A DNA stretch of 34,321 nucleotides from Physcia stellaris (lineage: Eukaryota; Ascomycota; Lecanoromycetes; Caliciales; Physciaceae): NCBI GenBank assembly GCA_018902385.1, contig JABSSW010000094.1, positions 1-34,321 on the forward strand, written 5' to 3'. Positions 1 to 34,321 of this stretch are shown here, one piece after another. How positions within the stretch are numbered: position 1 is the first letter of the stretch; the number at the start of each line of letters is the position of its first letter. The translations under genes and the position numbers were made by a program. Below the pieces are notes generated by a model. The model searched no databases. It saw only the letters and a program-made list of their open reading frames with translations, and had not been told where the DNA came from.

Positions 1-299
1 AACAAAAAAACGACGAACAAAATTTCGATTTTGACGCATTATTAAATGTCGTTTTTATTGACGCGATTGTTTTTTAATCGTTAACGAAATTTAAAAAAAA
101 AAAAAATCAAAATGTTTTTTTTGATCATGAAAAAATTAAACGAAATTATCGACAACGTTAAAAAAATTTAATCAAAATAAAATTGATTTCGATTTGAATT
201 TCAAAAAAATTTAAAATCATGAAAACAATCGTCGAAAAATTGAAACGTAAAATTTTGAATTTTTTAAACGATTCGAAAGCGTATTGATTCAAAAAAATC

Positions 300-1060
300 G
301 ACAAATTATTTTCGCATAAATTTTACGATCGCAAAATCGAATTGACGAAAAAGTTCAGATCAATTATTTCGAAATCGAATTTTATTTTTATCGTTTAAAA
401 ATTCGAAATTTTTCAAAATATTTACACGATAATTTTCAAAAAAATTTATCAATTCAAACAAAACGTTTTATGTTTCGTTATTTTATTCGTTGTCAAATCG
501 AACGAACAATTTCGTTTTTTGTCGATTATCGAAAATTGAACGTCATAATTCAAACGTAATAATTATTTTATTTCGTTAATCGAAAAATTTTCGCAAAAAT
601 TATCGATTGTAAATTTTTGTTCAAATTGAATATTATATTTGTTTTCAATGAAATTTCGAATGAATTCACAAAAACGAAAATTTCATTATTTTTATATGTT
701 CGTTAAGCATTTACAAATATCATGTATTTTTTTAATTAATTAATGATTCGACGTCAATTGACAACATTATATGAACGATTTGTTGTTCGAATATATCAAT
801 CATTTTTGTTAAATGTATTTGAATAATATTTTCATTTACAACAAAATTCGAAAACAACACGAACGACATTTATTCAAATATTTCAAAAATTAAAAAAATC
901 GAATTTCAAATCGATATCAAGAAATGCGAATTTTTTCAAACGAAAATTTTTTTTTTTTTCGACGTCATATTATCGACAAAAATTTGCGCATAAATTCAAA
1001 AAAAATCAAAACATTGTTAATTGAATTCGTTTCAATTTGCATCAAAAAAAAATGCAAACG
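300..1060 (+). pseudogene. Decayed reverse transcriptase domain of the Gypsy element
   Basis: At 515-541 the frame reads FFVDYRKLN, the RT box usually seen as RFCVDYRKLN in Ty3/Gypsy elements. About 70 bases later comes KLNIIFVFNEI, matching the KLDIIFAFN segment of fungal Gypsy RTs. At 907-930 the frame reads QIDIKKCEF, the conserved 'I.KCEF' stretch after the catalytic YVDD box. Upstream, around 300-350, KLFSHKFYDRKIEL matches the lead-in 'LP.HR.YDHKIEL' of these polyproteins. The catalytic DD box itself is not readable. Frame changes between 521 (frame 2) and 907 (frame 1) show at least one indel. Not functional. Confidence 0.85.
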
Positions 1061-1620
1061 TTTATAAATTTTTGCAATTTTTATCGACGTTTCATCAAAA
1101 CATTTTCGAAATTCGTCAAATTTTTAATTCGAATAATCAAAAAAAAATTGATTTCGAATGAATCGATTTAATCAATGAAACGTTCGAAATTTTGAAAAAA
1201 CAAATGATCGAAATTTCAATTTTTCGACATTACGATCGCAATCGTAAAACAATTTTGAAAATCGATTTTTCGAATTGATGTTTAAATGAAGATTTTTTTC
1301 AATACGACGACGACGAAATTTTTCATTCGATAACGTTTTTCAACAAAAAATTGATTTTTGTCGAATGCAATTACGAAATATATGACAAAAATTTTTAATT
1401 ATTATTCGATGTTTAAAGTATTGAAAATTCGAATTCGAAAATATCGACGAATTCGTCGAAATTTACATCGATTACAAAATTTGAAAATTTTATAACAAAC
1501 AAAAAATTGTTTTTCGTTAAATGCGTTAAATCGAAATTTTGATTGATTACAATATCAAAATTCAATATCAATTCGACGTCAAAACGTTAAAATTGATGTT
1601 TTGATTCGAATGTTTGAATT
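1060..1620 (+). pseudogene. Decayed RNase H / connection domain of the Gypsy element
   Basis: After the RT the reading continues through FCNFYRRFIKTFSKF-like residues (the family's FANFYRRFI..FS), then [22 protein letters not shown] around 1350-1425. That corresponds to the highly conserved '[17 protein letters not shown]' of Ty3/Gypsy RNase H. Further on, a stretch with WMRWIEIL.DYNIKIQY, taking stops as W, matches the 'R.ARWAE.LS.F.F.I.YRPG' end of the domain. Several in-frame TGA/TAA fall where the family has Trp. Colinear with the RT upstream and the integrase downstream. Confidence 0.8.
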
Positions 1621-1859
1621 TCGTTCAACGAAAACGACGAAAAAAAACTTTATAAAAAACAAATTTTTTTTTTTCGATTACAATTATGTTCAATAAACGC
1701 GATGAATGATTTGTACGAACGTATTATGCAAATCAATCGAAAAACGAAAATTGTATTAATTATCGTCAAATTTTGATCGATGATCAAATTATCAACGAAA
1801 AAATAAATTTGCGAAATTGTTCGAATCGAAATGAAATTTTATTTAAAATCGATTAAATT

Positions 1860-2330
1860 TTATGATTGAAATAATTCGTGACGTTTACGATCAATTTTTT
1901 TGTGTACATTCGAACATGAATCGTATTGAAAAATTGATTAAACGTTATTATTATTGATTTAATATAAAATTATTCATTAAACGTTACATTTGTAATTGTC
2001 ACAATTGTTAACGATCGAAATTTTCACACGATGATCGTCACGAATTATTAATTTCATTGTCGATTTTTAATCAACGATGAATTGATATATCGATGAATTT
2101 CATAATCGAATTGTTTGATTTCAAAAACAACAATGTTATTTGTATTATTATCGATCGTTTGATCAAAAAACGTCATTACGTTTTTTGCGTAATCGATGAC
2201 GATAATTTGACAATTCAAATTTGTGTCAAAATATTGATACATTACGTATTTCGTATTCATGAATTATTTTTTTCATCATTTCAAATCGAAATGATCAATT
2301 CGTAAATCGCGTTTGAAAAATTTTTTGTAA
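1860..2330 (+). pseudogene. Decayed integrase (zinc-binding segment and start of catalytic core)
   Basis: The zinc-binding segment shows IEKLIKRYYY, a stop in place of W, and then ICNCHNC, with the CxxC pair at 1997-2008. The core starts with NQR, TGA at 2078-2080, then IDISMNF, which is the classical 'RPW.DISMDF' with Trp turned to TGA and Asp (GAT) turned to Asn (AAT). Next come NNVICIIIDRLIKKRHYVFC (family: 'ILVIVDRLTK.RHFIPC') and IHELFFSSFQIEMIN, the degraded 'HGLP.SIISDRG'. The short open stretch 2093-2305 belongs to this domain. Both amino-acid changes are GpG/ApG to A changes, fitting the arm-wide mutation rule. Confidence 0.88.
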
Positions 2331-2849
2331 ACGATTAAAAATCAAATGTAAATTGTTCATTGTTTTTCAATTTGAAACTGATGATCAAATCGAACGAATC
2401 AATCAAAATATCGAAATTCGATTACGTTTGTATTGCAATTATCGTCAAAACGATTGAATTGATTGAATAAATATAATAAAATTCGTTGACAACAACGATG
2501 TTTCAACAATCATTCAATTCATTTCATTTTTTATCAATAAAAATATCATTTTCGAATGATTTTCGAATCAAATTTAAGTGATTACGAAATCAAAAAAACG
2601 TTTGTTGATTAAACAAAACAAATTCATTGTCGAAAAAATGAATTGTATCATCGAATATATCAAAATCAATGTTGTCGATGCAAAACAAAAAATAATTGTT
2701 CGAATCAACAAATTTCGTTTGATTATAAATTTTAAAATAGAAAATTATTTTTGATTAAATCGTCGTCATATAAAAACGACACGTTCATCAAACAAATTCG
2801 ATGACAAAAAATTGAATTCATACAAAATGATCAAAAAAAAATCTCGTTT

Positions 2850-3180
2850 ATGAATTAAAATTGTTCGACGAAATGCACATTTATTCAATATTTTATTTCT
2901 GATTGTTAAAAAAAAAATTTAAAAATTCGTTGAAAAAACAACATAACGATTTTTCAAAATCAATTATTGTCGACGAAATATTTGAATGAAAAATCGATAA
3001 TATATTGCAATTTCGATATCATTATCATCGATTACAATATCGTTGCAATTGATTCGAATGAAAATTTCACGATCGCACATGATATTACGTCGACGACGAC
3101 GAATTTCAAAATGTTCAAAATATCGTGAATGTTTTTCACGAAATCAATTCAAAAACAGCAAAATCTGTTTTGCGAAATGA
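2850..3180 (+). pseudogene. Decayed SH3-like tail and chromodomain of the Gypsy integrase
   Basis: Around 2850-2915 the reading YELKLFDEMHIYSIFYFWLLKK matches the 'Y.LELP..MKIHPVFHVSLL' segment that follows the integrase core in chromoviruses. About 50 bases later EIFEWKIDN, RYHYHRLQYRCNWFEW, DRTWYYVDDDEFQN and HEIN (about 2957-3150) follow the fungal retroelement chromodomain pattern 'EVE.ILD.R..R.KLQY.VKW.G....TWYP...F.NA..LL..FH'. Stops are read as Trp. A chromodomain would have targeted integration to heterochromatin, consistent with an AT-rich compartment. Domain assignment is by eye. Confidence 0.72.
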
Positions 3181-6112
3181 TTAAACAATGAATTTTGTTG
3201 TTTATGATCGATCAAAAAACGTTAACATTCAATTCGTTATTCATTTTCAAATTGATTCAAATGATTTTTTTTTTAATCATTTTAATCATTCGTTTCGTTT
3301 TCATTTCGCGTTGTTTACAGTCAAAATTTACGTCGCATGAAAAATTGAATCGTGTCAAAAACATTTTCAAAAATTGTCGTTCGATTTTATTGAATTATGA
3401 ATGATGTAAAATGTTATGCAATGATATAAATAAACAACAAAATGTTAAAAAAAAAAATTCGAACATTTACAAACAAATTAACAAAATTTTCAATTGTTTA
3501 TTAATAATTGACGAAATTATTTGTAAAATTTTTGCAAAATATTTATTTTTCAAAAAAATTTAATACATGCATATTTCGTTGAATGCAATGTACGAATCGA
3601 TTGTCGAATATGCGATAATATCGACGAATTAATCGTAATGACAAAAATTTTGTCGACATAATCAAATTGTTCGTTTTTGATATCAATTTGATATTGCAAA
3701 AATTTTCAAAATTGTTAACGCGTTCAATTGTTTGTTTATTAATGTTCGTCAAAATTACTTTTAACGAATTATATGAATTGATCATTTTTCACGATATTCA
3801 TTACATTCACGTTTTGTCGCATGCAATATATATATCAATTTTCGCATACGCGAAAATGTCAAAATTTTAAACATTGTTACGATGATTTTATTAACATGAT
3901 CAAATTGTTCATTTTATCGTAAATTAATTTAATGTTTTCACGATTTTTGCGAATCGATTTCGCGAACGAAATCGATTTCACAACATTTCGAATTTATTTG
4001 TTCATTTCATCAATTATTTAATTCAACGTCATTTAACAACGCATTTAAATCGCGCAAAACGTTCATCGTTAAAAATAAAAAAATTCAATTAATCGTTTCG
4101 AAACGAAATTGAAAAAAAACGAAAAATAATGTAACGAACGTATATCGAATTCAATATTTGACAAAATTAACATCGAATTAACATCGTTATTTTATCATAT
4201 CGAATGTTAAAATCGAAATTCGTCTTGACACATTCAAAAATCAAATTTTTACATATGTTTTTGCAAATTTCATGTATTTGTTTTTCATTTCGATATTTTC
4301 GTGTAATTATGTAATAATATCATATTTTTGCATAACATTTCACAAATGTTTCAAAAATTTCATAATCAAACATCGAACACGAAAATTCGATTTTGACAAT
4401 TCAATCGTGCGATTGTTGAATGATAAAAATTCGATCGTAAAAAATATTTTTTTAAATTGTACAATCGTATCGATCGTGTTTGTTTAAAACGTTTCAAATC
4501 GAAAAAAATATCGTGATATATTGTGCAAAAACAAACGCAAAAATAAACGCGAAAACAAACAAAATTGTTTACGAATTTGTTACAAAAACAATCGACACGA
4601 AATCGACAAACGAAACAAACGCAATCGAATCGATAATAACAAAAAAAACGAAACAGAAAAAATTGAATTTTTTGCAAATCAACGCGAAAACGAACGAAAA
4701 ATCAACAATGACGAATAAAAAAACGTTTTTTTTTTACGAATTTTAATGTAAACATTATCGCAATTTTGCGAAAAAATTTTTAACAAAAAACAACGAATTT
4801 TTGCGATTGATTTTTGCATTGTATTAATTACGTTACGCATTAAAAATTACATATTATCATTATTTTAATATTTTAATATCAATTTTAACATATTTTTGTC
4901 GTTATTTTTGATAACGAAAATGCAAACGTTATTTTACAATTTTATTAAAATTATGTTTTTTTCACAATAATGAAAATTCTTTTACAAAATTTGTATTTGT
5001 TGCGTTTTTTTTTTTTTCAAAAAAAACGCAAACGTGTTTTGAATTATAACGAAATTTACGAACGTAATGTTATTATTATAAATAAATCGATTTTGTTGTA
5101 CGTCAACATTGATTTAAAACAATTATGTATATTTGTTTATTAAATTTGATTATAATGCAATCGTAATTGTTACGTTCAAAATATCTTTGTATTGTATTGA
5201 ATTTGTTTAACAATTCAAACGAAAAAATCGATTAATTTAATTTGCGTTAATAACGTTATCGTTATAAACAATATATTCATAACAAACACGACAATCAAAA
5301 CTTTGCGCGATATAATTAAAATCAATCAAAAAAAAAAAATTATGATTTATTGCATTATTAACACGCGTATTATATTGTTGATATTCGAAAATCAATTTCG
5401 TTGTTATTAAAACGTTATTGCGATAACATTATTATTTGTAAAAACGATATAATAATTATACAAACAACGATATATCATGTTAATATCATTGTTGCAATAA
5501 TTATTGTTATTGCAAAAACAGAAAAATCAAATAAAATATTTATTATGTTGTGAAATAAAAATGTTAAAAAATTTAAAAAATAAATTCGAAAATTGAAATA
5601 AACAATTTTTAACATATTATTTATTTCGATTCGATTTTACAACATGAATGCAATATTTGAAATTGCATTTTATTATTGTTGTTATTTTTATTTATTAAAT
5701 TACAATGTTTCAAAATTACACGTTAACAATACAATGTTATATACAAAACAACGTTGTTGCGATATATTCATAATAAAATATTTTTATAAAAAAAAATATT
5801 TGATTATTTTTATTTGACTTTTTTGTCGAATCGAAAAATCAATTTTTTCGAAACAAAAATATCAATTTTCACGACATTTTCATTCACAATCATTTCGTAA
5901 ACATACAAATTCGTAAAACAATTAAATTGTAAAATTAATTAAACGTATTTTAACGCATTAACAATCGCATTAATTTGAACAATATTGAATTTGTTATAAA
6001 ATTTGAAAATATTCAAATTTTAAAATTTGTCAAATTTGTTTCGCAAATTAGAATTTTTTCGTTAAATTTGATATTTTTATCAATTGAAAATTCAAATATT
6101 TAATCGAAACAT
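3181..6112. other. AT-rich, CpT/CpC-depleted tract; no recognisable gene
   Basis: About 2.9 kb with the same mutation signature as the neighbouring transposon remnants. Short open stretches occur on both strands (for example 3667-3870, 4272-4487 and 4480-4746 on +, 4366-4677 on -), but none gives a domain I recognise. The stretch 4520-4720 on + is Lys/Asn/Thr-rich with loosely repeated NAK/KTN words. It could be the 3' flank of the Gypsy element plus other decayed repeats. No LTR pair found by eye. Confidence 0.5.
5000..5031. repeat. Perfect 13-bp inverted repeat (hairpin)
   Basis: The arms ttgcgtttttttt (5000-5012) and aaaaaaaacgcaa (5019-5031) are exact reverse complements around a 6-base loop. 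Half of each arm is an A/T homopolymer, so a chance origin in such biased DNA is quite possible. No link to a gene or an element end is visible. Confidence 0.4.
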
Positions 6113-7261
6113 ATGTCAAAATCATTTTCGAAAAAAATTTTAAAAAAATTTCAAACAAATAAAACACAATTTATAAAAAAATATTCATTAAAATCGTTTA
6201 ACGCGAATGATCGATCGAGAAAAATTTTGATCAATTTCGCGTTTGTATTTTTTAAAGTCGATAAATTCAATCAATATTTAATTCATGTTTTCAATGCGAT
6301 AAATTATCAAATTTTTTTCGTTCAATTATCAAAATTCATTTTGAATGCGAAAATTCGTACAATTGTTTCGCAATTTGCACATCAATCAACAATCACATAT
6401 GATTTTCAATTATTTAATTCAAATTGTAAAACAAAATGAACGCAATTCAACGTCGCAATAATAACAAAAATCGATTCATTATCGTAATAATTTTGAAATT
6501 TCGAACATTAAATCATTGTTATTTAAATGTTTGTTCGCGAAATGTTTTATTTCAATTTTTTTTCAATGTTTGTAAAACAACGATGCGATATTTATTATAA
6601 TTCAATGCGATTACGTCAAATTTTTGAAATTATTGATTGTTTAAATAAAATTCATTTTGCATTTCAAAATGAATTTTCGATTATATGTTTTATTTATTGA
6701 ATGTAAATGTTATTAAGATGCGAATTTCGTGAAATCGCAAAACAATAACGAAATGTCGAATTTGACAATTTTATCAAATTCAATTTTAATTTTGAAAACG
6801 ATTGAAAAAAAATTTTTAAAAAAATTTCGAATTTGTTTGTTTGTATATTATAAAAACATTGATAATTGACACGAAAAATCGATTATTCAAAAAAAAAAAA
6901 CAATTATAATAAAACGAAATCAATTAAACGAACGTTAAAACGTTACGAATTTAATTGTCGTATTTCGTGTTTATATATTCGAAATTTCACGATTTTTTTG
7001 TTTTTTAACAATCAATTTTATTATGTGTTTAATATTTATTATAACAATCAATATTATTATTCGCACATTTTAATTACGCAATGTTTACATTTTTACATTT
7101 TAATTTTTATATTTCATAATTTTACGATGAAAAAAAATTGAAAAAATTTTAATATTAAATTATTTTCAAACATCATTTATTCGATTTATTTTATTTTATA
7201 TTATTGTTCAAAATGAACGATCGCATTTTTAATCAATCATAATATAAAAATGTAAATTTTT
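6113..7261 (+). pseudogene. Unidentified decayed reading frame, open except at TGA/TAA codons
   Basis: From ATG 6113 a single frame runs for about 1.1 kb without apparent frameshift. It joins the open stretches 6113-6439 and 6866-7141, which lie in the same frame. It is interrupted only by TGA and TAA, several of which would be Trp (TGG) if the CpY mutation is undone. The start region reads MSKSFSKKILKKFQ and is Lys/Ser-rich; the middle contains MRLRQIFEIIDCLNKIHFAFQNE; the end is rich in Asn/Tyr. I do not recognise a family. It is probably a transposon-encoded protein because it lies wholly in mutated repeat DNA, but AT-rich codons make long open frames less surprising than usual. Confidence 0.4.
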
Positions 7262-7320
7262 AAAAAATTGAATTATAAATGTTGTGCGTAATGACGTCGA
7301 TAATATAAATCGACATTAAT

Positions 7321-7450
7321 ATTTCGTATTTTTTTCATTATTATGTACAAAAATTTTAATATTTTGAATTTGATAAATTTGTAAATTTTTTATATAAATA
7401 AAACAATTTAACAAAACAATTTTTAAAATTTGATTATTTTTTTTATTTTT
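7321..7450. repeat. Direct repeat copy 1 (about 120 bp)
   Basis: Starts atttcgtatttttttcatt and includes the words ttttgaatttgat, atttgtaaattttt and acaatttaacaaaacaattt. A second copy begins 361 bases downstream (7682), with mainly single-base differences. The two may be parts of one repeat family, for example duplicated element ends. No coding content. Confidence 0.7.
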
Positions 7451-7580
7451 ACGATTGAATTAAAAAACGAAAAAAAAATTCGAACAAAAATGACAAACAA
7501 AATTTTATAAAAAAATGAAAACGTCGAAAAAAATCAAAAAAATAAATAAACGAAACAAAAAAAATAAAAAATAAAAAAAA

Positions 7581-7675
7581 TGAAATATTGATTTTTTATT
7601 TAATTAAAAAATCGATTTTTTTAAATTTTTTTATTTCGTTATTTTTGCATTAACATTCACGTTTAATTTAAACGA
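7581..7675. repeat. 95-bp repeat, deep (mutated) copy; partner at 14787-14881
   Basis: Aligns without gaps over 95 bases to 14787-14881, with 76 identities. Of 19 differences, 17 are C-to-T or G-to-A going from the edge copy to this one. The other two form one adjacent reversal (tcg here, tta there). The shared core includes attttttatttaatta and gcatt.(a/g)cattcacgt. Upstream of both copies is an A-rich tract. It lies immediately before the second copy of the neighbouring direct repeat. Likely part of a dispersed, non-coding transposon segment. Confidence 0.85.
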
Positions 7676-7681
7676 ATTAAA

Positions 7682-7810
7682 ATTTCGTATTTTTTTCATT
7701 GTTATATACAAAAAAATTTGATGTTTTGAATTTGATCGATTTGTAAATTTTTGTATAAACGAAACAATTTAACAAAACAATTTTTAAAATTTAATTTTTT
7801 TTACAATTTT
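7682..7810. repeat. Direct repeat copy 2 (about 120 bp)
   Basis: Partner of 7321-7450 in the same orientation. It begins atttcgtatttttttcatt and keeps the words ttttgaatttgat, atttgtaaatttttgtata and acaatttaacaaaacaattt in the same order. Copies differ at scattered positions and diverge after the aaaatttaa/gattttttt run. It follows the 95-bp repeat by six bases, suggesting both belong to one composite repeat. Confidence 0.7.
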
Positions 7811-8700
7811 AAAACACGTTGAAAAACGACGTCGTCGTTTAAACAAAACGAAAAAAAACAAATTAATCGTTTTAATGATAACACGATATTCGAAAAACGT
7901 AATTTTTGTTAATTTCAATATATAACAAAAACGTTTTGAATTTTTATTTTTAAAAAATGAATCAAATCGTTCGAAACGTTTATATTGCGAATTTCGATTA
8001 CGACATCACGTCGAAAAAAATATTTCGAATAATTGTCATCGTGTTTCAAATTTTCGATCGTTTTACGTAATATTTTGATGACGAATTGAACATTAAAAAT
8101 TTTTAATTTTTCGATTTAAAACAAAAAAACGTATTTCGAAATCGAAAAATGCAAAAACAAATAATATAATGAAATTATTATATAAACAATATCGTTCGTA
8201 ATTATAATAAATATCGAAACTTTTTTTACGAAATAAATCGATTTTCGAAACAAAAAACGTTAAAACGAAATGATCGTCAAAAAAATTATCGAAAAACAAA
8301 TAACGAATTAATTGTCGAAATTGAACGTGCAATTAATATTAAATTACGTAAATTTATCAATACGTAAAAAATTTGCAAAAATTAAACAAAATGCGACATG
8401 TAATGTAACATTTTTTTGATACGAATATCGAAAAATTACAAAATTTTTAGCAAAAAAATCGTTATTTGTATATTTTTTTTTATTGCGTGCAATTTTTCGA
8501 AATGATTTCGATTTTATCGATAAATTATCGATTAAAATTTTTTAAAATTAATTTTCAAATATCGAAAATTGTTTTCGTAATATCGTTAAAATATATGTCA
8601 TATCAAATTTTATGTATTATTTTTACATTTTTAACAACGTGTTGTTTCATTCAATATAACGACGAATATTTTTGTAAAATGTCGTTTTATTATTAACGAA
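7811..8700. other. AT-rich mutated tract before the MULE; no gene recognised
   Basis: About 0.9 kb of CpT/CpC-depleted DNA. Open stretches at 8093-8332 (-) and 8466-8696 (+) are Phe/Ile/Tyr-rich and have no family signal. This segment should contain the 5' end and terminal inverted repeat of the downstream Mutator-like element if it is complete, but I could not locate a convincing inverted repeat pair by eye. Confidence 0.4.
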
Positions 8701-8719
8701 TTCGAATCGATCGATGAAA

Positions 8720-10650
8720 TCATGACGTCGTTTTTTTTAAAAAATCAATATGTAAATGTTTTCGAATTTTTAAAAATCGTCAATGATTTTATCAAAAATC
8801 AAAAATATATTGTAATCATTAAAAATTTCAAATAAAACAAAAAAAACGAAAAAATTATCGCATATTTTTGTTGTATTAAAAATCAAAAAATGAAAAATAA
8901 TACGAACAAAAAAATCGAAACGTCGTTTCGAAACGTACAAATTGTTTGTTTCAAATCGTTACGAAATTCGAAAACAATACGTGAACATTCAAACGAATCA
9001 ATATCGAAATTCACAATTACGAAAAAAATGTTCAATTTTTTTACATTAGATTTCGAAATCAATTCATGAAAAAATTTGACGTTTAAAAAAATATTTTAAT
9101 TCAATACAAAATCAATCGAAAATTTTCGAAAATTTTGAATTTTATTAACATCAAATACGATAACGATGATTTCGACGATTTAATAATCGAAATTCGAAAT
9201 ATTTCGAACGTTTTGTAATTTATTCGAACGAAAAAAATAAACAATAAAATTTTCATTCAAATTTTCAATGTGTATTTTCAAAACAATTTCGATGAATGAT
9301 GAATTCGTGTGAAATTGAATTCAATGACGAAAAAGATTTTTTATATGTATTGATTCAACAAGACGTTCATGAATATGTTTCGAATCAACGAGAAAATTAT
9401 GATAATAAATTGTATTTACAAAATCAATCGTTATCGAATGTTGTTAATTATTTGTACAGAAATCATTTATTTGAACACGTTTTTTTATGCGAAACAAATT
9501 TTTCTCGAAAATGAAAAATTGAATAATTACAAATGACTTTTGCGATTATCAAAAATTTGTACAAACATTTAAACATATCGTTTTCAATTGTATGATTTTC
9601 GAATGATAAATTTAACATATTTACAACAATTGCAAAAGAAATATTATTAATTGTTAAACATGTTTTATGTATATGACATTTGAAACAAAACATTGCAATC
9701 AATTGCAAAAATACTTTTTACAAATAAAATTTGATTCGTATTTTTCGACGAAAATAATAAAAAAATCAAAATCAAAAATACAAAAAATATTTATCGTTTA
9801 TTGTACGTTGATAATCAACAAAATTTCGATTCAATATGACAAAAATTTCAAAACACGTACAATTTTGTAAACGAAAATATTTGTCTTTATTTGAAAAACA
9901 ATTTTCTATCGAAAAAAAAGAAATGATGTAAAATATGAATTAATTTCGTTACGCATTTCGATCATTTTACAACTTTCATCGACGAAAACAACAATACTTT
10001 GTTAAAAAAAATTAATGAATTTTCAAAAAGATTTGAAAACGATAATCGATATTTTCAACATCATTTGCAATCGTCAACGAAACAATTACATTGTTGTTTT
10101 CGAAATTGCTAAAAAACGACTGAATCACAAATTTCGAAAAATCATATATCGAAACGTTGAAATTTACGTCACGTCATTTGCATTGAGAAAAATTGACGAT
10201 CAATACAAAAAATTGTTAAAAACGAAAAAAAAAAACATCAATTTATTTGTTTGTACGAAATTTTTCAAAAAAGTCATGAGTTTTTTTTGTGCGCATGTCA
10301 TCGAAAAACGTCGAGCGAATTTTGAAAATGAAAAAATATTGAAATTGATCGATATACATTCGTATTGAAAATTCAAGAAATTTATTCGTCATTACAATAA
10401 ATTCGACGAGTTCGTGAACGTTGACGACGACGAAAATAATACATTTGTTCAAAAATTTTTGTTACGAATACAGAATTCAACAACGATATTTACGAAAAAT
10501 CGTTTTCGAAAATCACAAAATCGAAACAAAATCAAAACAACAAAAAAACGAAATCGTACAAAAAAACGACAACGAATTTTTGACAATTTTATTCGTCGAA
10601 AATTTTGACGATTCGAATATATTGAAATTATTGATTTTATTTCGAACATA
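8720..10650 (+). mobile_element. Mutator-like element (MULE) transposase remnant
   Basis: Reading + with TGA as former Trp gives a fungal Mutator-like transposase in order. (1) An N-terminal FAR1/WRKY-type part (about 8750-9010), with IVNDFIKNQKYIVIIKNF then KNEKIIAYFCC. (2) A core around 9533-9700, with TFAIIKNLYKHLN and then VKHVLCIWHLKQNI..NCKNTF, the MULE 'HLLCIWHI.KNV..NC...F' block. (3) The C-terminal SWIM-like zinc motif at 10252-10296. (4) A basic tail near 10480-10600 resembling the family's 'GRPRGS.NK' linker. The size (about 1.9 kb, 620-640 codons) is normal for fungal MULEs. Frameshifts and stops make it non-functional. Terminal inverted repeats were not found. Confidence 0.82.
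10015..10368 (+). pseudogene. MULE transposase C-terminal part with SWIM-like C-x11-C-x-H motif
   Basis: The 117-codon open stretch begins inside the transposase and holds ICNRQRNNYIVVFEIAKKRLNHKFRKIIYRNVEIYVTSFALRKIDDQY. It matches the fungal MULE block '..RQ..E........R.PH.FR.....Y.....STFAL.KI..QY'. After it come Cys 10252-10254, then MSFFCAH with Cys 10288-10290 and His 10294-10296, giving C-x11-C-x-H (family: 'MGLPCAH.I..R'). DIHSYW-like residues end the block (stop in place of W). This is one of the best-preserved stretches in the left arm and keeps more CpT/ApG sites than its surroundings. Confidence 0.82.
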
Positions 10651-13600
10651 CAAATTTCTTTTAGTCAATTTTTTTAATCAATTTTTTTGTGTGATTTTTT
10701 TCATTTCAATTTATTCGATCGTTTATTTTTTATTTCGAATTTTCGATATTTGATTCGTTTTTCATTTTATATTTTTAACAACGATTTTAATTCGATTTTT
10801 CGATTTCGATTTAATCGTTTTCAAATCAAATATACAATTAATAATTCAATCAGATTTACAATTAATTTATTTCGATTTAAAATCATTCAACAACAACGAA
10901 AACAAAACGAAATCAAAACAAAAAAACAAACGAAAAAAACATAAAACGAATTAGAAAATAAAAAAATCTCGAAAACTTTGACGATTTTGACGATTTCGAA
11001 TTTTGCAAAATCAATATCGCGATTATATATCGTTGCGAAAATTTCAAATTCGAACAAATTGATTTTTTTATAATAATTTCGATTTTATTGATCGAAAATG
11101 ACAATATATTTATCATGCGAATTAATTCGATAAATACATGATAAAATTTTGATATAAAACGTATTTAAAAATGATTTTTTTTTTATTTTTGTGATATTCG
11201 AAAATTTTGTTTTCGTTTTTCGAAAATTTTAATTTCAATAAAAAATTGCACGCAATAAAAAAAAATATGTAAATAACGATTTTTTTAATAAAATATCACG
11301 AATAATCGTTTTGCGTTTACGTTTTCGTTTTCGTTATACATACGTTTAATGTCGTTAATTTCGCGTTGTAACAAAAATTCATTAAAAACGATAAAATTAA
11401 TATATTTTCGATCGACGCATACAAAACGTAAATCAATAATATATGTTTTAATAATTTTCGATTTAAATTTTCGAAATTTCAACGAATTTATTTATTCAAC
11501 AATGCAAAATCACGTGAATGAAAACGTTTGAAATTTGTTAAAAACGCAAAATTTCACGTATGAATTGACGATCGAATCGTGAATTTTTCGAATGTTTAAA
11601 ATCAAATTTTATTACAAAAATCGAACGATCGTTTTGTTCAATGAAATTTGAATATATTAATAATCAAATGCGTCAACAATAAACGACGAATCGAAATTTA
11701 AAATTAATTATGATGAATTTGCAATTGCGAATATTCGTCAACGATTTTATTATATTTATTACGTGAAAATAAATCAACGAAATAATTGAATTTCGAATTT
11801 AATTATATCATTTCAATCAAAATATCATGAAAAGCGAACAACATGATTATATCACGAAAAAATATTATTGTTGAATCGTGTATCGTGTTTTTGTCGAATT
11901 TTATATAAACGATTTGATTATCGCAATGAATAACGATTTTGTTATTTTCGAAATGAAATAATCATTGACGTAACGCATGTAACATCGTTCGCATTTTTTT
12001 GATTTGAATATTCAATTGTCGATTGCGAAAACGCGTTGAATAACGTCAATTGAAATTTTCGAATAATTCGTCGTTAAAAACACGAAATCAAAAATCGTTT
12101 ATGTTTTAATTGTTCGAAACGTTTGTTCAAATATGATTTGACGATCGTGAAAACATTATTCGCAAAATTTTGATATCGTTTTATTGTGATAAAAACATTT
12201 GTCATTAACGTAAATTTGTTCGCATGATTTCGTTGAATTTGCATATTTTATTGACGTTTCGAATGTGATCGCGAATTCGATACAAAAAAATAAAAAAAAA
12301 TCGTTCAAAATCACGACTTTTGCACAAAAAAATAAAAAATTCACGAAAAAATCGATTTGACGATACGAGAAAAAATTTTGAATAAAAATCACGTTGACAA
12401 ATTTCATTGTTTTCGTCAATTTGATTGAAAAAAATTTGATTTTCATGATTTCGTTATCGAATTCGATGTTCAAAAATTCGAATTTTGTGTCAATTTTTTT
12501 TCGTTCGTTTCGAAATCAAATTTATTGCATATATTTCGTCAAATAAATTTATATGATTCGAAATCGATGTGAAATTTCATGATAATAAAAAATCGTTTAA
12601 ATAATAAAAAACGATGCGAAAATAATTTATTTTAACGAAAATTCAATGCAACGTTTTAATAAATAAATCAAATAAAAAAAAAACGATTCGAAAATCGAAA
12701 AATAAAAATAATTTCATATAAAATTCGTCATTTTAACAAAAATCGAATAATCAACGATTTTATACGATCACAAAAATGTGTTTGAACGCATTTGCAAAAT
12801 TTTTTTTGAACATTATCGCATTTCGTTTTTGAAATATAAATATTGCAATAATTTTATCGAACGTGACATATTTCAAAATTTTTGCATCGAATATAATGTT
12901 TTCATTGATTGAATCGTTTTTGAAATATGATAAATCGTAAATACGTTTTCAATCGTTGTCGTGTTTCGAAATCAAATTTAACGACGAACAAACGTAATGA
13001 ATAAAAAAAACGTCACGCAATTTAATCAATCGATAAACATTTATTTGTTTGACGAAATTGACAATGAATATATCGAAAATTTTGTTGATCGAATTGTGAT
13101 TGTTGAAAATGCGAAATTTTTATTATCGATATATTCGATGTTGACGTTTCGTTTAATAATGTTAAACAATTTGTTAACGAAATTTCAATCAAAATGAATT
13201 TTTAATCGAATATTTTTTTTTGTTTTCAATGACATTTTAATATCGAAATTAAAAACGTTTTCGAAAACGACGTCATATAAAAAATTTCTCGACGATCATT
13301 TTATTGAAATCGACATGATCATACGAAATGAATAATTCGAAAAAAAAAAAGAACGAAAAAAAAAATCGATTAATTATTTTGTGATTTTGTTGATGCATTC
13401 GAATTTGTTATAATATTTTTGTTGACATTTTGTACAAATATGTTTGAATTTGCAATTTTTTCGTATCAAATATTGTTGTTGAACGCAATACAAACGTTGA
13501 TGCGAATTGTAATACGTTTATTTTTGAATTTACGAAAATAAAAATTAATTGATATTCAAACGTTTTTTTGTTTGATTCAATAACGATTATATTTTTGAAT

Positions 13601-14786
13601 TTTTATTCGATAAAATCGATTTTAATTAATCAATTAACGAAAACGTTTTAATCGATACGAATAATTCGAATTAAATTTTTTCGTGTTATATTACGATCAA
13701 CGATCACGTTTTGTAAAAATACGTTTTTATGATACGAATACGATATACGTTCATGACGAAATTCAATTAATATTGAATATTCGAATGAATAAATTCGAAA
13801 ACAACGTTATAATATATTTTTATTGTCATCAAAAAAATATTTTTGAAAAATTTTGAACGCGTATCGATAACGATTTCGAATGCAATTTAAAAAAATAAAT
13901 TTAAAATTTTTTTGATATTTAAACGAAAATAATAAACGTTTTGCAAAAATCGAAACAACATATTGATAAATATTCGTTTCATTTTGAAATATTTCGAATC
14001 ATAAATTATATGTAAAAATTCGTGCGAATTTTTGTCGTTTAAACAACGAACGAAACGACAAAATACGAATTTAAAAAATGTAAAAAAAATAACGAAAACA
14101 ACGTACGTTGAATAAAAATAAATTTATTCAATTTTTTTGATATGTTTTTATTTTGTTTTGAAAAATTATTTTTCGACAAAAATTTTTTTGAAACGAAATT
14201 TTCGTTATTTGAAAATTTTTCGCATGCGCGTGATTATTAAATTTAAAATTCGTCGTCGTCGAATGCGTCGTTATCGTTATTGTCAAAATTGATGAAATTA
14301 AAAATCATGACGTTGAAATCGTTTTCGTTTTCGTTTTCGATTTAATTTTCGAAATAATCAAAAAAAAAAAAATTCGAAAACGAACGTTTCGAAAAATATT
14401 TCGAAATAAACGCGTTAAAATGAAACGAAAACGTAAAACAAATTTTTTAATTCGATTACGATTTTTTACGTCGAAAATAACACGTTTGAAAATTGCAAAC
14501 GATTTGAATTTGAATATAAATGTTTCGTTGTTATTTTTTCAAACGACAATATTATTGTTTTTGTCAAAAATGAAAATAAACTTAATGTCGACGAACATTA
14601 TTACGACAACGAAAAATTTAACGAAATCGAATTTTAATTAAATCGAACGAAATATTACAACAAAAATTGTACGAAAATCGAAAAATTGAAATATGCAACA
14701 TCAAAAATTGATGTGAAAATTTTTACAATTGATTTTTGCAAATAATTTGCAAAAAAAAAGAAAAAAAAAATGAGAAATGAAAAAAA
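10651..14786. other. AT-rich mutated tract, 4.1 kb, no recognisable gene
   Basis: Strong CpT/CpC depletion throughout. Open stretches at 10687-10944 (+), 11285-11482 (-), 12156-12473 (-), 12997-13197 (+) and 14420-14641 (+) give no family I can name. The 12156-12473 minus stretch and its continuation to about 11,500 are open apart from TGA/TAA and contain a few clustered Cys (CEQ, CFYH, CE.CF), so a decayed zinc-binding transposon protein on the minus strand is possible. A minus-strand Asp/Glu/Asn-rich tail (14250-14340) could be the end of another decayed protein. Confidence 0.45.
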
Positions 14787-14881
14787 TGAAACATTGATTT
14801 TTTATTTAATTAGAAGGTTAGTTTTTTCAAGTTTTTTCATTTCGTCATCTCTGCATTAGCATTCACGTCTAGTCTGGACGA
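14787..14881. repeat. 95-bp repeat, island-edge (lightly mutated) copy
   Basis: Gap-free partner of 7581-7675 (76/95 identical). It still has CpT/ApG and GpG sites that are all lost in the deep copy. Homology stops at gtctggacga; the next base starts unique DNA, so 14881/14882 marks the transposon/gene-island junction. An A-rich tract (14750-14786) precedes it, as in the deep copy. The junction is only 20 bases from the stop codon of the MFS transporter gene. Confidence 0.85.
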
Positions 14882-14901
14882 TTTTCGAGCCCGCTCGATG
14901 G

Positions 14902-16889
14902 CTAAGTCTCTTCTTTGTGCAGTCCGGTCCTCGTTTCTACATGTTCTTTGCTAAGTTTGCGTTTGGCTACAAAGGCTGTCGCTACAAGCCCTACGAAGGA
15001 TATGCAGGTATAGAGAATCCACAGATTCCTCAAGCTCCAAGCATAAGCCTCCTTGATGGCGAGCTTCTGGGCAAGGTCGACTATGGTACTGATTGTGTTG
15101 ACGTTGGCGGCAGCATCTCCATCGGAAAAGTGATTTGCGATGTCCACTGGTACACCAGCGTTGAGCATGTTCTTGATCTGAAGATGCATACCATTTTGGA
15201 ATATCACACCACCAATGACGATTGACATGGACATTCCAAGGTTCCGTATGAAAGATAGGGTTGCTGTTGCCGTAGCGGTATCATCTTGCGATACGTGAGC
15301 CTGAAGTGCAATCAGAGGTGGTTCGAACAATAATCCCGATCCCAGGCCTGCTACAATCTGGAAACCGACGATCTGGCTAAGTGGAGATGTTGCGTTCAAA
15401 TGTATCAGCATCCCAAAACCTAGAGCCAGTAGGGCCGACCCAATCCATTGTACCTCCAAATATTTTCCTGTTCTATGAATTATGACACCGCAAGTTATTC
15501 CCATCACAGTCTCGGTAACAATGAAAGGTAGGATTAAAACGCCCGAGCGCAACGGTGATGCTTCTTGGACGGATTGGAAATATAAAGGAAGGTAATATTC
15601 ACCGCCAATGAATGCCTTGATCCATCAGTTTCTATTCCGATAGTATGAAAAAAATAGAGTACTCACAAAGCCATGCGAAAACGCGACCAACAAGCTCATA
15701 ACATTCGACAGCTCCTTCACAATGCGAAGTGGCATCAAAGGGTATTTAGCAAGCCGGCGCTCACTGTAGACAAAGAGGATGGACATCAGACATCCGAAAA
15801 CTATCAAACAAATGACCTTTGGTGAGTCCCATGGGAAGGTTGTACCCCCAAAATTAAGTCCAAGTAGAAGCATGATTGTGAGTCCGATGATGGAGAGGCT
15901 TCCAAACCAGTCCTGTTTGGTTTCAAAGTCAGAAACATCGTCCTTGGTAATGCGATGAATTCCAAGACATGTGTTTTATGCAGAACGCTGGCACTTAATG
16001 TCTTGTACAAGATCTGAAAAAGAAAAGACGTGGTTTGAAAAGACTTACTATAGCTCGTACTCCATCATAGATTTTGGTCTTAGGGTTGTGGACGTCCAAA
16101 AAGAAGAACAGTAGAATGAAGGCAAGACCACAAAATGGGAGATTGACCCAGAATATCCATCTCCAAGAAACGAATTGTGCAAAGGTACCTCCAAGGATTG
16201 GTCCAAGGCCGCCAGCAAGAGCCCATATGCATTCGCAAAGACCGAAAAACAGCGTCCGTTGTCTGTCTTTGTGTGAGGCCGATAAATCGTTCATGTCAAT
16301 TCGCCTTTTTGGACTCACCTCATACTGAAAATATCCGAGATGACGATATTGACGAGCTGGATAAGTCCACCGGCAGCAGTTCCTTGCAACGCTCTTGCAA
16401 CGATCAAAATCTCCATGCTTTTCGACAATGCACACATAATAGAACTGCCACCAAATATTGCAACAGCCACAAGTAATATGGGCTTTCGGCCCCATATGTC
16501 AGATATTTTGGCCCAAACGGGGGCACCTGCAGCACTAGCCAAAAGGTATGCGCCTCCAATCCAGAGGTATCCCGAAGCAGAGTGCAGATCGGATGAAATG
16601 GTTGGAATCGCTGTTGCTACAATAGTCGTATCCAGCGCTGCGATGAAGAGAGACAGCTGTGCGAAAGGTTAGCTTGTCCATCAATTATGTGAAATTCGGA
16701 TACGAGCTGGGTCTCGAATACCGCAAGAGCCAGCAGGATGGCTGCAAGTCTTAGGCGACTGCGAGGCTGGTCCGGCTGAAGCATCTTCATTGGCTGAACA
16801 ATAGCACCGTCATGCTTGCAGATATGGTTGGTCTGATTGCTGATTTCAGCGACCGATGATCCTTGGCGACAATTTTCAATGACATCCAT
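14902..16889 (-). CDS. MFS drug:H+ antiporter (DHA2-like, 14-TM type), five exons
   Basis: Plasma-membrane efflux transporter of the major facilitator superfamily. Exons (minus strand): 16704-16889, 16319-16656, 16049-16262, 15667-15912 and 14902-15615, giving 565 residues, usual for this family. Splice sites are GT-AG, and the second junction restores SMRQRTLFFG. The hydrophilic N-tail (about 45 residues) is followed by TM1 with LDTTIVATAIPTI, typical of DHA2. Motif A is GAPVWAKISDIWGRKPI (residues about 106-122). GLGPILGG fits motif C, followed by SWRWIFWVNLP. Later exons give HGFAFIGGEYYLPLYFQSV and TATATLSFIRNLG..IVIGGVIFQN, both family signatures. The third intron (15913-16048, 136 nt) is longer than the other three (47, 56, 51 nt); its ends are chosen to give RAIDWFGSLS. 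The substrate cannot be told, and there is no biosynthetic cluster beside it. The gene ends 20 bp from mutated transposon DNA. Confidence 0.93.
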
Positions 16890-21429: not shown

Positions 21430-21464
21430 CTTTAAGGGTGCCTGGGGGGTTTTCAAAATGCTCC
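21430..21464 (+). repeat. Left terminal inverted repeat of the MITE-like element
   Basis: 35 bp beginning CTTTAAGGG next to a TA dinucleotide, containing CTGGGGGGTTTT and ending AATGCTCC. It pairs with 22088-22122 with five mismatches and no gap. Confidence 0.78.
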
Positions 21465-22087: not shown

Positions 22088-22122
22088 GGAGCATTGCGCA
22101 AACCCCCCAGCCGCCCTTAAAG
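22088..22122 (-). repeat. Right terminal inverted repeat of the MITE-like element
   Basis: Reverse complement begins CTTTAAGGGCGGCTGGGGGG and ends AATGCTCC. It is followed on the + strand by TA (22123-22124). Confidence 0.78.
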
Positions 22123-28949: not shown

Positions 28950-30129
28950 TTTATCACTCAATTGTGTCCTATCGTAATATCGACTTTCTTGTTGTTTCTA
29001 CTATTTGAATTCTTCATTTGATGATTTAGTCAGAAATTATTTAAATTTTTATCATTGATTCGCAATCAAGATTCGAAATTGAATGTTACGAAAATACAAA
29101 ACGTCGAGTGAAATTGAAATTACGATAAAAAAACTTGAAAATCGTCAAACGTCAAAACTCAAAATTTACAATACAATAACGATTATTTATCATCAAAAAC
29201 ATCATTCACAATTATTACATCAATTATTAAAATTACGATTTTATCATATCGCAAAATCATTCAACAATTCATTTTATTTATCATCGATTTGTTTATTCGA
29301 AATATTCGCATTTTTCGTTATCAATTTTGACAATTTTATCATAATCGATTTTAATCGAAATCAATTGAATTCGCATTTTTCGAAAAATGAACATTTTCGT
29401 TGATCGATTTTTTCAACGATTGAAAAAAAACATTTTGTTATAATTTTTTTTTTTTAAAAATTTATCATTTTTCAATTATTTCATCGAAACAAATTGAAAA
29501 TATTTATTATAAATTTTTTTTTTGAAAATAAATTGATGTCAAAATCGAATTTTGACATAAATTTTATTTTTGATTTGTACAAAATTCGAAAAAAAAAACA
29601 AACGAAAAAAATTCGTTTGTGAAATTCAATTAAATTATTTGTTCAAAAATCAAAAATTTTAATGTCGATAAATAACAAAACATTAAAAAACGAATTTTTC
29701 GAAATTATTTCAATATTCGCAATCATTTCGATATTTGAATTATCAATTAAATTTATTGATTTATCAAAATCTTTTGCGATAAACAATTTCGTTATTTTTA
29801 TTGAATTTTCAAAATCAAAAAATCGAATTTTCATTTTCATTAACGAATTAATTTCATTTTTTAAACAATTTCAACGAAAAATTTTTCATTTTTATCGTAA
29901 AACGATTTTTGTGAAAATATTTTTACAACATTTCACGAAACAATTTATCATTTTCAAAAACATCAATACGTTAAAAACGTTTGTCGTAATTGATTATCAA
30001 AAAAAAATGTTTTCGAAAATTATACAAATTTCGAATTTTCACGAATATTTTTCGAAAAATTTTTTCGATGATTACGATTCATCGAAATTCAATATTTGTC
30101 ACAATCACAATTAAACACGAAAAACAAAA

Positions 30130-30560
30130 AATTTTTTCAATATTACATCGTTGTATTCAAAATTAAAAAAAATGCAATTAAATAAATTAATGATCAAAAA
30201 AATATTTTGATTAAAAATTGAAATGTTTTTAAAAAAAATTTCATCGAAAAAATTTTTAAAAAAAAAATTAAATACGAATCGATTTTAAATGCATTATATA
30301 ATTTTAAACAATTAAAAAAATCGCTGAATGAATATGTTGAAAAAACGAAAAAAATTCAACGAATATTTTTCAAAAAAATACAAAATCAAATGTTATACAA
30401 AATGATATCGAAATTGAACGATGACATAACGAAAAAAATCGTTAAAAAATAATTGCACAAAAAAAAAATTCGACGTACGATTTTGAAATTATTGTCAAAT
30501 TAATCAAAAATATTATCGAAAATCAAAATAAAAAAATTCGATAACGAAATTACAACGAAA
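30130..30560 (+). pseudogene. Decayed gag (capsid-like) segment
   Basis: Around 30285-30440 the frame gives ALYNFKQLKKSLNEYVEKTK, then KIQNQMLYKMISKLNDDITKKIV. The pattern 'L.NF.Q...ESL.EYV.KA..I......Q...KFI.GLND...R.IV' is typical of retrotransposon gag proteins. TGA/TAA interrupt it where Trp or other residues are expected. Followed by the zinc knuckle 0.4 kb downstream in another frame. Confidence 0.68.
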
Positions 30561-30931
30561 AATGAATTCAAAAAATCGTATGTTTGCAATCATTTTAAAT
30601 CAAAACAACAAAATCATTTCGATTTTTATTCGTCAATTTGTCGATTTCAACGTTTCAACATCATTCAAAAAACGTCAATTTAAAAAACAAAAAAATGTCG
30701 AAAATGTTTTTGTTTTTATCGTAATGATGCATTCAATCAAAAAAACAAAAATACAATTCAAAAAATCAAAATCAAAACAATCAGAATCGAAATAATTAAC
30801 AAAAATATCAAAATCAAAAATATGAAAAACAACAAAATAAAAATTTCAAAAAAAATTTACAACATTTTTTGTATTACGCGTTTGCAATTGCATTATTTGC
30901 AACGTCGTTCAACAATGTTAATTTTTTTATT

Positions 30932-30973
30932 TGTTATAATTGTGAAAAAATCGAACATTTTTTCAAACAATGT
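30932..30973 (+). pseudogene. Gag CCHC zinc knuckle
   Basis: Fourteen codons read CYNCEKIEHFFKQC, an exact C-x2-C-x4-H-x4-C nucleic-acid-binding knuckle as in the nucleocapsid part of retroelement gag. The position that is normally Gly after the second Cys is Glu (GGx to GAx by the arm-wide G-to-A change). The open stretch around it is 30869-31129. Confidence 0.85.
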
Positions 30974-32040
30974 TTTCATTTTCAAACGTTTAAAAAAAAT
31001 AAAAATCGTTTGTTTCGAAAAAATGAAAAAAAAACGATCGACAACACAACAAACATTATTTTCAAAAAAATTTCGTACGACAGAAATTTTTATAATCGAA
31101 CACGATTGTTATTCAACAAACATTCATGATATTTCAAAATAACAAAAAATGATCGACGAATGAAATTTAAACGATGAACAAATGTATTTGAATCAAAACA
31201 ATCAATGCGAATTTTGTGAAAACAAAAAAAAAATGTTGATCGTTAAAAAAAATGCGATCGAATACGAAATTGATCAAAATTTCATTTTGAAAAAAATAAT
31301 GAATCAAAAAAAATTCAAAATCAAAATGTTTCGTCGCATTGAAAATTTTAACAATGATCGATTTCAACAAAATCAAACATCGAAATTTTTTACAAATTTT
31401 GAAAAATTTGATTTTATCGATGAAATTATGAAAAATAAATCAACGAATTCGAAAACGTTACGAAATAATTCGAATGCGTTATTTGTTTCATTGACATCAT
31501 TAATACAAAAAATTCAACAAAAACGAACAACAAAAATAAAACGCAAATACAATTCATAAAAATTGTGAAAACAAACGAAAAAAAATGTTTGATTTCAATG
31601 ATTGAATAAAAAATATCAACATTAACATTGAATTGAAACAATTATTAATCATGATTTCGCGAACAAAAACACAATTGACAAACGTAATAAAATTACAATC
31701 AAATTTCAATCGAAAAAAAAAATTTTTACGACAAAAAACAAAAAAAATGTACAATTTGCAAAACAAATAGAAAAAATCAATCATGTTTATGAAATGACAA
31801 AAAACAATGTGTTTCGATCAAATTCATTACGTTGACATACGATGAAATCACAAAATTTTTACAAACGCATAAAACGTTTCGCAAAAAATTTAACAAACGA
31901 TTTTAAAAAATTTTATCGTCGTTTCATTAATTTTGTTTCATTTCAAATTTCATTAACGAATTTTTTAATGAAAAATTTTTACATTCAAACGATAATCAAA
32001 TTTCGTAAATCATTGTTTAATATTTGAAATATCAAAAAAA

Positions 32041-32223
32041 ATGTTTGTCGATTCGAATTTTACATTGAATTTCATTGTTGAACGAATTTTTCACGCAATG
32101 AACGAAATCGCATATTCGAAAAAATTTATAACAATGATTATAACAAACGAAAACAAAATTCGTTTTTCGAAATATATCAAATTGAAAATCGTCGACAAAA
32201 TTAATCGTGTGATACAAATTTGA
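32041..32223 (+). pseudogene. Decayed retropepsin-like protease segment
   Basis: The frame starts MFVDSNFTLNFI. The family has an active-site D-S/T-G triad in this setting (a hydrophobic pair, then DSGST.N.I). Here the Gly codon reads AAT, consistent with GGT changed at both Gs. Asp is at 32050-32052. It lies about 1.1 kb past the zinc knuckle, the expected order. The call rests on this one motif plus position. Confidence 0.6.
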
Positions 32224-34321
32224 ATTATGTCAAAAAAACGATTTATTCGATGATTTTAAAAAAAAATCGTGATTGAAAAACGTGATCGCAATCGATTTGT
32301 ACGAATTTGACGAATATTGAATTAAAAACGCGATTGCAAAAATTACAAAAAATGAAAATGTTTGATTTCGAAAAAAAAATCGAAAAAAAATATACGAAAT
32401 TGAAATGAACGTTGCGTTAACGCAAAATGTTGATGTCGAAACGTTCATTAATTTGAAATACGAAAAAAAAAAAAAACTGAAAAAATTTTTCGACAAATCG
32501 AAAAAAATTGAAAAAAAAAAAATGTGAAACGAAAAAACTAATTTGATGATAAAAATAAATTTGAAAAAAAAACGCAAATCAAAAAAAAATCATGTTTTTC
32601 ACGACATTGAAACGTAAAACGAACGAAAATAATCATTCAACAAAATCAAAAAAATCGAAAAAATGATGTCGACGTCAAAATAAAAAACGACGATATATGA
32701 TCGAAAAATAAAAAATCAAAAAAAAAAATTTGACAAAAACGCTGTTGAAAATAAAAAACGATAAAATCAATTACGTAAATTATCATCAAAAAATTGAAAT
32801 ATCGACAAATTACATCATTGCATCAAAATTTTTTGTTATAAAAATTCGACGTAAATTTGTTTCGAAAAACATTTTGACGACAAAAATAAATTCGAAAAAA
32901 AAAAAATGAATGACGAAACAAAAAAATGTTTTCAGATTTTTATCGTAAATCATTTGTTTACGATGTGAATGAAAATTAAACACGACGAAAACGAAAAAAT
33001 CGTTTGTCGACAAAAATTCGAACATAAAATGAAAATTCGATTAAAAATGCGACGAAAATCAAATCTCAAAAACGTAAATACAAATGATCGAAAATTATCA
33101 AAAATAATCAACAAAATCATCGTTTGAAAAAAAAATTTTCGTTTTCAATTTTTTTGTCGTAAACATTCATCAAGAAATTTCGATGCAAATACATGATGAA
33201 AAAAAAATCTTTGAAAAAAAAAATGAATTTTTTTATTAACAAAAAATCAATTGAATTTCGAAAAAAATTATTAACAGAAATTTCAAAAAATTCAATTTAT
33301 GATTGAAAATTTTTTCAAATTTGATAAAAAATTTGATTGTTACGAATCAAAAAAACATTAAATACATTGTTTATTAAAAATTTGAAAAACGTTTTTGTTA
33401 CGAATATTAAAAATATGTTTTTACGAATTTAATTCAACACAAAATTTTAACGTATCAACATATCATTTCATGAATAATTAAGTTTGTTTTTTTACACAAA
33501 AAAAATGAAATGACAAAAAAAAAATATTTCATTGTTAAAAGAAATTGAAATCATCATGAGATACAATTTTTTTGATTTTCAAAAACACGATTTTTCGAAA
33601 ATCAAATGAAAAATTGAAAATAATGCATGTTTTTGTGATTTAAACGAAATTATTATCAAAACGAATCAATCAACGCGTAAAATCGAATCAATTTTAAAAA
33701 ATTTAACACAATTTTTCGTCAAATATTTATTTAAAACGAACGCGACGAATAATTTTTGAACGATTTTTGTTTATTTTTTCATGCGTACAAATTTGACATC
33801 AATACGATCATTGAGTTTTATTGTTATTTTAAAATGAAACAAAATACAACAAAAAATTTGAAACATATTTTCAATTAAAAAATACTGTTACAAACAATAT
33901 ATTAAAATCGAATTCGAAATTTGTTTTATCGAATATGAATTTTGAATATTCAGTTTTCAATCATTTCATTGATGACGACGAAAAAAAATTCGACATTTTA
34001 CAAACATTGATTAATTTTTTACATATTCATTATTTTTCAAAATTAATATGAACAAAATTTATTTTGAATTTCAAAAATGCGAATTTTTTCGCCGTTCAAA
34101 ATACAATTATTAAAACATAAACGAAATTTTAAAAACATTAAACTCAATGAAAACAAAATAAAAATATTTAAAAAATTTCTTATTTTTCGTTTATTTGTAA
34201 AAAGAAATTGAAACGTTTTTGTACATGTTATTTTTTTTTTTTTAAAGAATACATTTTTGAACGCGTCGATCGATTTTTTTTTCGTACGATCATAATGAAA
34301 AAACAATCATTATTTTGAAAA

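Follow-up and report, generated by a model that had tools for sequence, protein, structure and literature searches.

The window analysed here is the whole 34,321-nucleotide stretch of contig JABSSW010000094.1 (GenBank assembly GCA_018902385.1) of Physcia stellaris, a lichen fungus of the ascomycete order Caliciales. It consists of a gene segment of normal composition between two AT-rich arms, which very probably bear the marks of a C-to-T mutation process resembling repeat-induced point mutation (RIP). The left arm (1-14786, GC 0.224) contained no CpC or GpG, 27 CpT and 41 ApG, together with 799 CpA and 727 TpG; in 200 mononucleotide shuffles of the same bases the means were 191.7 CpC, 180.2 GpG, 623.1 CpT, 660.5 ApG, 682.1 CpA and 598.1 TpG. 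CpG was retained: 857 were counted in 14,786 bases (shuffle mean 186.0), and the middle, of normal composition, has 791 in 14,414. The right arm (29200-34321) had 1 CpC, 0 GpG, 10 CpT, 13 ApG and 234 CpG, against shuffle means of 67.5, 45.1, 193.7, 223.0 and 54.8, respectively. The middle (14787-29200, GC 0.496) contained 865 CpC, 871 GpG, 922 CpT and 931 ApG. A first-pass annotation, made from the sequence of the window, had described this depletion through both arms and had counted 12 CpG, 7 CpA and no CpT, ApG, CpC or GpG in bases 1-180; dinucleotide counts and shuffles bore out both statements. Trinucleotide counts showed that a surviving C in the arms is preceded by A, T or G. The depleted contexts are therefore written below as CpY, where Y is a pyrimidine, and RpG on the opposite strand.

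The boundaries of the arms are sharp. On the left, the number of CpY+RpG per 100 bp was 2 at 14701-14800 and 17 and 26 in the next two intervals; on the right it was 18 at 28901-29000, followed by 5, 3 and 0. The change in composition spans ~100-200 bp at either boundary.

A reverse-transcriptase search, in which 150 of 527 candidates were scored, yielded both unmutated and mutated copies of Gypsy-type elements. The unmutated copies L035, L036 and L037 had 128-141 CpC+GpG and 124-135 CpT+ApG per kb. Because these copies do not lack CpC and CpT, the depletion is mutational, as first proposed, and an ancestral lack of these dinucleotides was rejected. L036 and L037 are 95% identical and of normal composition, and sites at which they agree served as the reference for the first family. 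L035 was the reference for the second, for which a search gave 24 matches including the L035 query itself. Sites with a reference C that read T in each mutated copy are counted in Table 1. L039 and L040, which are ~58-61% identical to L035 and belong to other families, were excluded from the seven-copy count; at that distance the contexts were blurred (CpC 35/75 and 32/67, CpT 32/78 and 25/59, CpA 15/86 and 18/63, CpG 17/81 and 15/68, respectively). No Gypsy relatives were found in viral_contigs, and a 5.8S motif search for ribosomal DNA as a second reference found nothing. The three escaped copies lie at C52:253840-257322 (L035), C5:1165021-1168497 (L036) and C12:58812-62288 (L037). The differences between L036 and L037 were considered as an early stage of the process, a reading rejected on their contexts (CpC 38, CpT 36, CpG 22, CpA 26), which are not confined to CpY.

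Table 1. C sites reading T in seven mutated Gypsy copies, scored against unmutated copies of the same family
Copy	Location	Reference	CpC	CpT	CpA	CpG	A/T sites changed
L041	C95:25080-28560	L036/L037	334/427	158/381	6/411	2/419	10/1554
L042	C51:4741-8229	L036/L037	378/428	184/382	8/409	3/418	14/1556
L043		L036/L037	233/263	166/264	11/262	5/268	15/1024
L023		L036/L037	131/133	81/90	12/106	1/129	2/393
L012 (older)	C5:1-10000	L036/L037	332/395	286/359	66/385	69/389	156/1547
L045		L035	427/444	360/461	16/445	11/412	
L022		L035	246/256	236/276	28/267	9/243	

In 7/7 copies CpC was hit at least as often as CpT, and both far more often than CpA and CpG; CpA was the main mutated context in none of them. 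In L041, 500 of the 1638 scored C sites read T and 10 of 1554 A/T sites had changed, so mutation was almost wholly from C:G to T:A. Expressed as rates, a CpC of L041 had received ~1.5 hits on average and a CpT ~0.54, with CpA and CpG near the level of unrelated change, and the hit fraction of CpC was ~50 times that of CpA. CpA was almost intact in L041, L042, L043 and L045, the freshest copies of the two families, with 1-4% of sites hit, and CpG was the best-kept context of the fresh copies (2/419 to 11/412). The CpG counts of L041, L042, L043 and L023 do not fit spontaneous deamination of 5-methylcytosine at CpG, which was rejected.

The initial proposal that the 3' base decides and the 5' base does not was right about the 3' base and nearly right about the 5' base. 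CpY sites of L041 were hit at similar frequencies after A (112/177), C (119/189), G (114/202) and T (123/195). Nevertheless, a G before CpT lowered the rate somewhat, with 18/61 sites hit against 0.45-0.48 in L041 and 21/60 against 0.50-0.60 in L042. In L045, G-preceded targets were hit at 225/274 and T-preceded targets at 217/234. Positions -4 to -2 and +2 to +4 had little influence. The first C was hit less in CCC (41/61, 45/60) than in CCA or CCG, which would follow if the middle C of CCC often mutates before it.

Mutation can proceed along one strand at a time. In four tracts of L041 none of the 108 CpY sites on one strand was hit, whereas the opposite strand was hit at 65/72 CpC and 19/40 CpT; the longest one-strand run comprised 41 sites, compared with at most 20 in 5000 permutations. 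CpC and CpT are therefore struck in the same strand-wise event, an argument against a different enzyme for each context. Among new in-frame stop codons in five copies, 44 of 46 arose from TGG to TGA and none was TAG. These TGA stops reflect the CpC rule at the coding level. L041 and L042 have 475 CpY hits in common where chance would give 341; copying or conversion therefore followed an earlier mutational round.

Within the window, the left arm contains a ~4.5-kb dispersed repeat split by a nested ~2.85-kb element (Table 2). The nested element retained 10.6 CpT+ApG per kb, compared with 1.7 and 2.2 per kb in the two parts of the host repeat, and is therefore probably the younger of the two. 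A C90 copy of the nested element, expected to be unmutated, was found to be mutated. The ~4.5-kb family was likewise represented by mutated copies throughout the six that were fetched (L029-L034), and so its mutational proof rests on the junction pair, in which the spared repeat end was compared with its mutated relative. Sites in that pair had changed to T at 2/2 CpC, 11/11 CpT, 7/13 CpA and 0/6 CpG.

Table 2. Features of the window
Feature	Position	Strand	Basis
Left AT-rich arm of mutated repeats; no CpC/GpG, almost no CpT/ApG, CpG retained	1..14805	.	Dinucleotide counts
~4.5-kb dispersed repeat, first part, split by nested element	7500..8455	+	Copies on other contigs have 7500-8455 and 11282-14885 adjoining
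Nested ~2.85-kb element, ~50-bp terminal inverted repeats	8445..11290	.	Ends match inverted; 90% copy at C6
~4.5-kb dispersed repeat, second part	11282..14885	+	Copies on other contigs
Repeat end at junction, last ~75 bp spared	14763..14885	+	Compared with mutated relative 7557-7679
Unmutated GC-normal gene segment	14811..29000	.	Composition and protein family matches
Right AT-rich arm, same CpY rule	29160..34321	.	Dinucleotide counts

Comparisons among mutated copies of the ~4.5-kb family reveal only a slower erosion of CpA and CpG. The window copy (11283-14886), compared by best match alone with two sister copies, read T at 113/410 and 123/425 of their CpA sites and at 60/546 and 58/548 of their CpG sites; in the reverse direction the values were 37/348 and 31/350 for CpA and 18/486 and 16/486 for CpG. 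CpA is thus almost intact in the freshest copies and eroded in old ones. The original statement that CpG is kept and CpA partly kept consequently needs an age attached to it: both are nearly intact in fresh copies, and old copies slowly lose CpA as well as CpG. Either CpA is a slow target of the process and CpG a slower one, or a second, slow process has been added to the first.

The P. stellaris genome was obtained from an axenic ascospore-derived culture with long and short reads and was reported as 46.57 Mb in 184 scaffolds (PMC7513301); no RIP analysis appears in the accessible part of that paper. The assembly analysed here comprised 43.97 Mb in 147 contigs. Twenty 10-kb stretches, 13 located at contig starts, were chosen by position, and 500-bp windows with GC <0.30 were classed as AT-rich. 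Ten of the 20 stretches, all at contig starts, contained AT-rich windows, and 10/10 followed the same CpY rule. Their AT-rich windows held 0.1-2.6 CpC+GpG, 5-36 CpT+ApG and 43-67 CpG per kb, and windows of GC 0.40-0.55 held 85-128 CpC+GpG and 42-59 CpG per kb; these bins also include the present window and L001-L004. Inside the six copies of the ~4.5-kb family there were 0.65-1.83 CpY+RpG per 100 bp. At 6 of their 12 flanks the value was 12.6-28.8, close to the 25.3 in the middle of the window, so that mutation stops at the repeat end there; the other 6 flanks are themselves mutated.

Standard RIP indices under-call this pattern, as the first-pass annotation had predicted. The CpA-based RIPper thresholds (1.1, 0.75 and composite >0.01) were passed by 0/36 AT-rich 1-kb windows. 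TpA was not enriched, with TpA/ApT at 0.54 and 0.45 in the arms, also below the RIPCAL value of 0.89. In the arms, an index built on CpY, (CpT+ApG+CpC+GpG)/(TpC+GpA+CpC+GpG), was 0.039 and 0.041, compared with 0.947 in the middle. Indices based on CpA and TpA are blind to the CpY rule, and RIP in lichen fungi may therefore be miscounted.

A six-frame search of the genome for DNA_methylase domains gave four matches in three genes, among them homologues of both enzymes suggested for the search, RID and DIM-2. One gene (L002) encodes a DIM-2-like homologue (PDB match, E ~1e-181). The other two are of the RID class, match PF00145 and retain the SPPCQ motif, features that they share with RID/Masc1-class C5-methyltransferases. 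Paralogue A (P0001, contig C5) is a full-length protein with the catalytic motif SPPCQFFSDAHT and matches G7Y79_00005g016670 of Physcia stellaris at 99% over 99%. In the tree, which also contains a protein named RIP defective from Sordaria, A groups with the RIDs of other lichens, Teloschistaceae among them. Paralogue B (L001, G000 C6:790057-794028) differs from the class by its long stem and by a Gln for His. It falls in a 12-row clade with a stem of 0.63 and support of 100/99, whose sole database-named member besides Physcia is from Heterodermia, also of the Physciaceae; Heterodermia carries both A and B. Four rows, one of them the RIP defective protein of Neurospora tetraspora (P0349), were left out of the final tree, whose midpoint root serves for drawing only. 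An earlier tree, without DIM-2, omitted four rows lacking the motif pattern and included two bacterial rows on very long branches. The position after SPPCQxxSxx was Gln in 37/37 B rows with the motif and His in at least 278 of 282 other motif rows, 33 of 352 rows being unscorable. A FED-Q-like string was present in 29/38 B-family rows (L001; P0121-P0158) and in 0/314 other rows.

The arms are very probably the remnants of dispersed repeats struck by a repeat-directed, strand-wise C-to-T mutator of the RIP kind that needs a pyrimidine 3' of its target, taking CpC first and CpT next, with CpA weakly hit and visible only in heavily worked copies and CpG hardly hit. The agent would be a RID-class C5-methyltransferase acting during the sexual cycle. 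We class the process as broad-sense RIP that follows a new target rule. It departs from the canonical type, in which CpA is preferred and TpA rises, as the CpA and CpC counts of L041 illustrate (6/411 and 334/427, respectively). Strand-limited tracts are a RIP trait and were seen in Physcia. Physcia also shares with Neurospora-type RIP the restriction to C-to-T changes, their concentration in repeats, the nearly unlimited intensity and the presence of RID and DIM-2 homologues. It differs in its targets, CpC and then CpT in place of the RID-dependent CpA, in the unenriched TpA and in stops that are TGA instead of TAG or TAA. Methylation induced premeiotically (MIP), the methylation without mutation of Ascobolus, was rejected, the repeats being heavily mutated.

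CpT-biased RIP-like signatures have been described in Magnaporthe, Botrytis and Sclerotinia, and CpT has been linked to a RID motif (Amselem et al. 2015, PMC4352252). Physcia shares with these fungi the targeting of CpT and a RID/Masc1 gene. There, however, CpT accompanies CpA as the first or second context and CpC is unnamed, whereas in Physcia CpC leads and CpA is nearly spared; the signatures listed in the available text of that paper are CpA, CpT and CpG, without CpC. CpT targeting alone is not new, because known RIP fungi show strong CpT change beside CpA (PMC7882544, PMC2621366). The CpG-type mutation of basidiomycetes and Tuber (PMC4352252) is likewise a context-ruled C-to-T change in transposons, but Physcia keeps CpG best. 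In a survey of 1,239 fungal genomes, RIP-like defences shared a CpA preference (PMC12543289, section 9), and the accessible portion names no Lecanoromycetes among the 130 species with strong signatures. Two Lecanoromycetes are RIP-positive by the indices of PMC7882544. Cladonia rangiformis has been reported to show strong RIP and to carry RID and DIM-2 homologues (PMC12542154); its main text as available mentions neither CpG nor CpA. In the open-licence literature we found neither RIP led by CpC nor any study of RIP in Physcia, which does not prove their absence.

Several points weigh against this reading of the arms. Older copies (L012 and the window copy) lose CpA and CpG, which a second, slower process could explain. 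At the other 6 of the 12 flanks the repeat adjoins mutated DNA (0.8-5.3 CpY+RpG per 100 bp), and mutation may there have spread beyond the repeats. L041 and L042 are not independent copies, some of their mutations being common to both, and the survival of three unmutated copies means that the process misses some elements. The evidence comes from the sequence of one species, and every enzyme considered is a candidate.

As for the enzyme, the divergence of paralogue B makes it the leading candidate for an altered specificity. The stretch after SPPCQ, which we take to be the catalytic loop near the DNA in C5-methyltransferases, is remodelled in B, and a resulting change in the 3'-base rule is plausible. 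Tentatively, B may be a dedicated CpC-first CpY mutator, marked by its His-to-Gln change, whose specificity was rewritten after gene duplication. If so, the damage done in defence would spare CpA and CpG, yield TGA stops and evade CpA-based surveys. The case opens to testing the old question of which residues give a RID-class protein its target.

It is conceivable, though rather unlikely, that the ordinary RID, paralogue A, has itself shifted to CpY while B does something else. A is a RID-class protein of full length that carries the catalytic motif, and in Neurospora the enzyme known to carry out RIP is RID (PMC12543289). However, A groups with RIDs that include those of the Teloschistaceae, and Gyalolechia flavorubescens of that family is RIP-positive by CpA-type indices (PMC7882544), which argues against a clade-wide shift of A and not against one within the Physciaceae.

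DIM-2 would be an improbable driver. In that case heterochromatin-guided mutation preferring CpT and CpC would be responsible, and a DIM-2 homologue is present in the genome. The DIM-2 route reportedly reaches single-copy linkers; the sharp stops at 6 of 12 repeat flanks, and within the repeat at the window junction, are unlike such spreading. Its context is disputed: one review gives DIM-2 a CpT preference (PMC13297926), but Dim2 of Zymoseptoria tritici promotes CpA mutation and hardly methylates CpT (PMC8016269).

A cytidine deaminase of the AID/APOBEC type, working without a methyltransferase, is very improbable. Strand-limited tracts would also be compatible with a deaminase acting on single strands, but AID/APOBEC enzymes read the 5' base, which is nearly neutral here, and the rule is set by the 3' base. 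APOBEC_N had no match in the genome, a result of little weight since the control was silent. Ancestral composition or an assembly artefact, in favour of which nothing was found, has practically no probability, given the normal CpC and CpT of the unmutated copies, the normal middle of the same contig, the near-constancy of A/T sites in fresh copies and the recurrence of the pattern in two Gypsy families and ten other contigs.

The gene segment of the window was untouched by the putative CpY mutator. It encodes an MFS-like fragment that scores under the Pfam cut-off, a DUF7730 protein, a peptidase M18 and further genes without an assigned family. In an open reading frame of this GC-normal segment, a 54-bp unit occurs five times head to tail (27193-27530).

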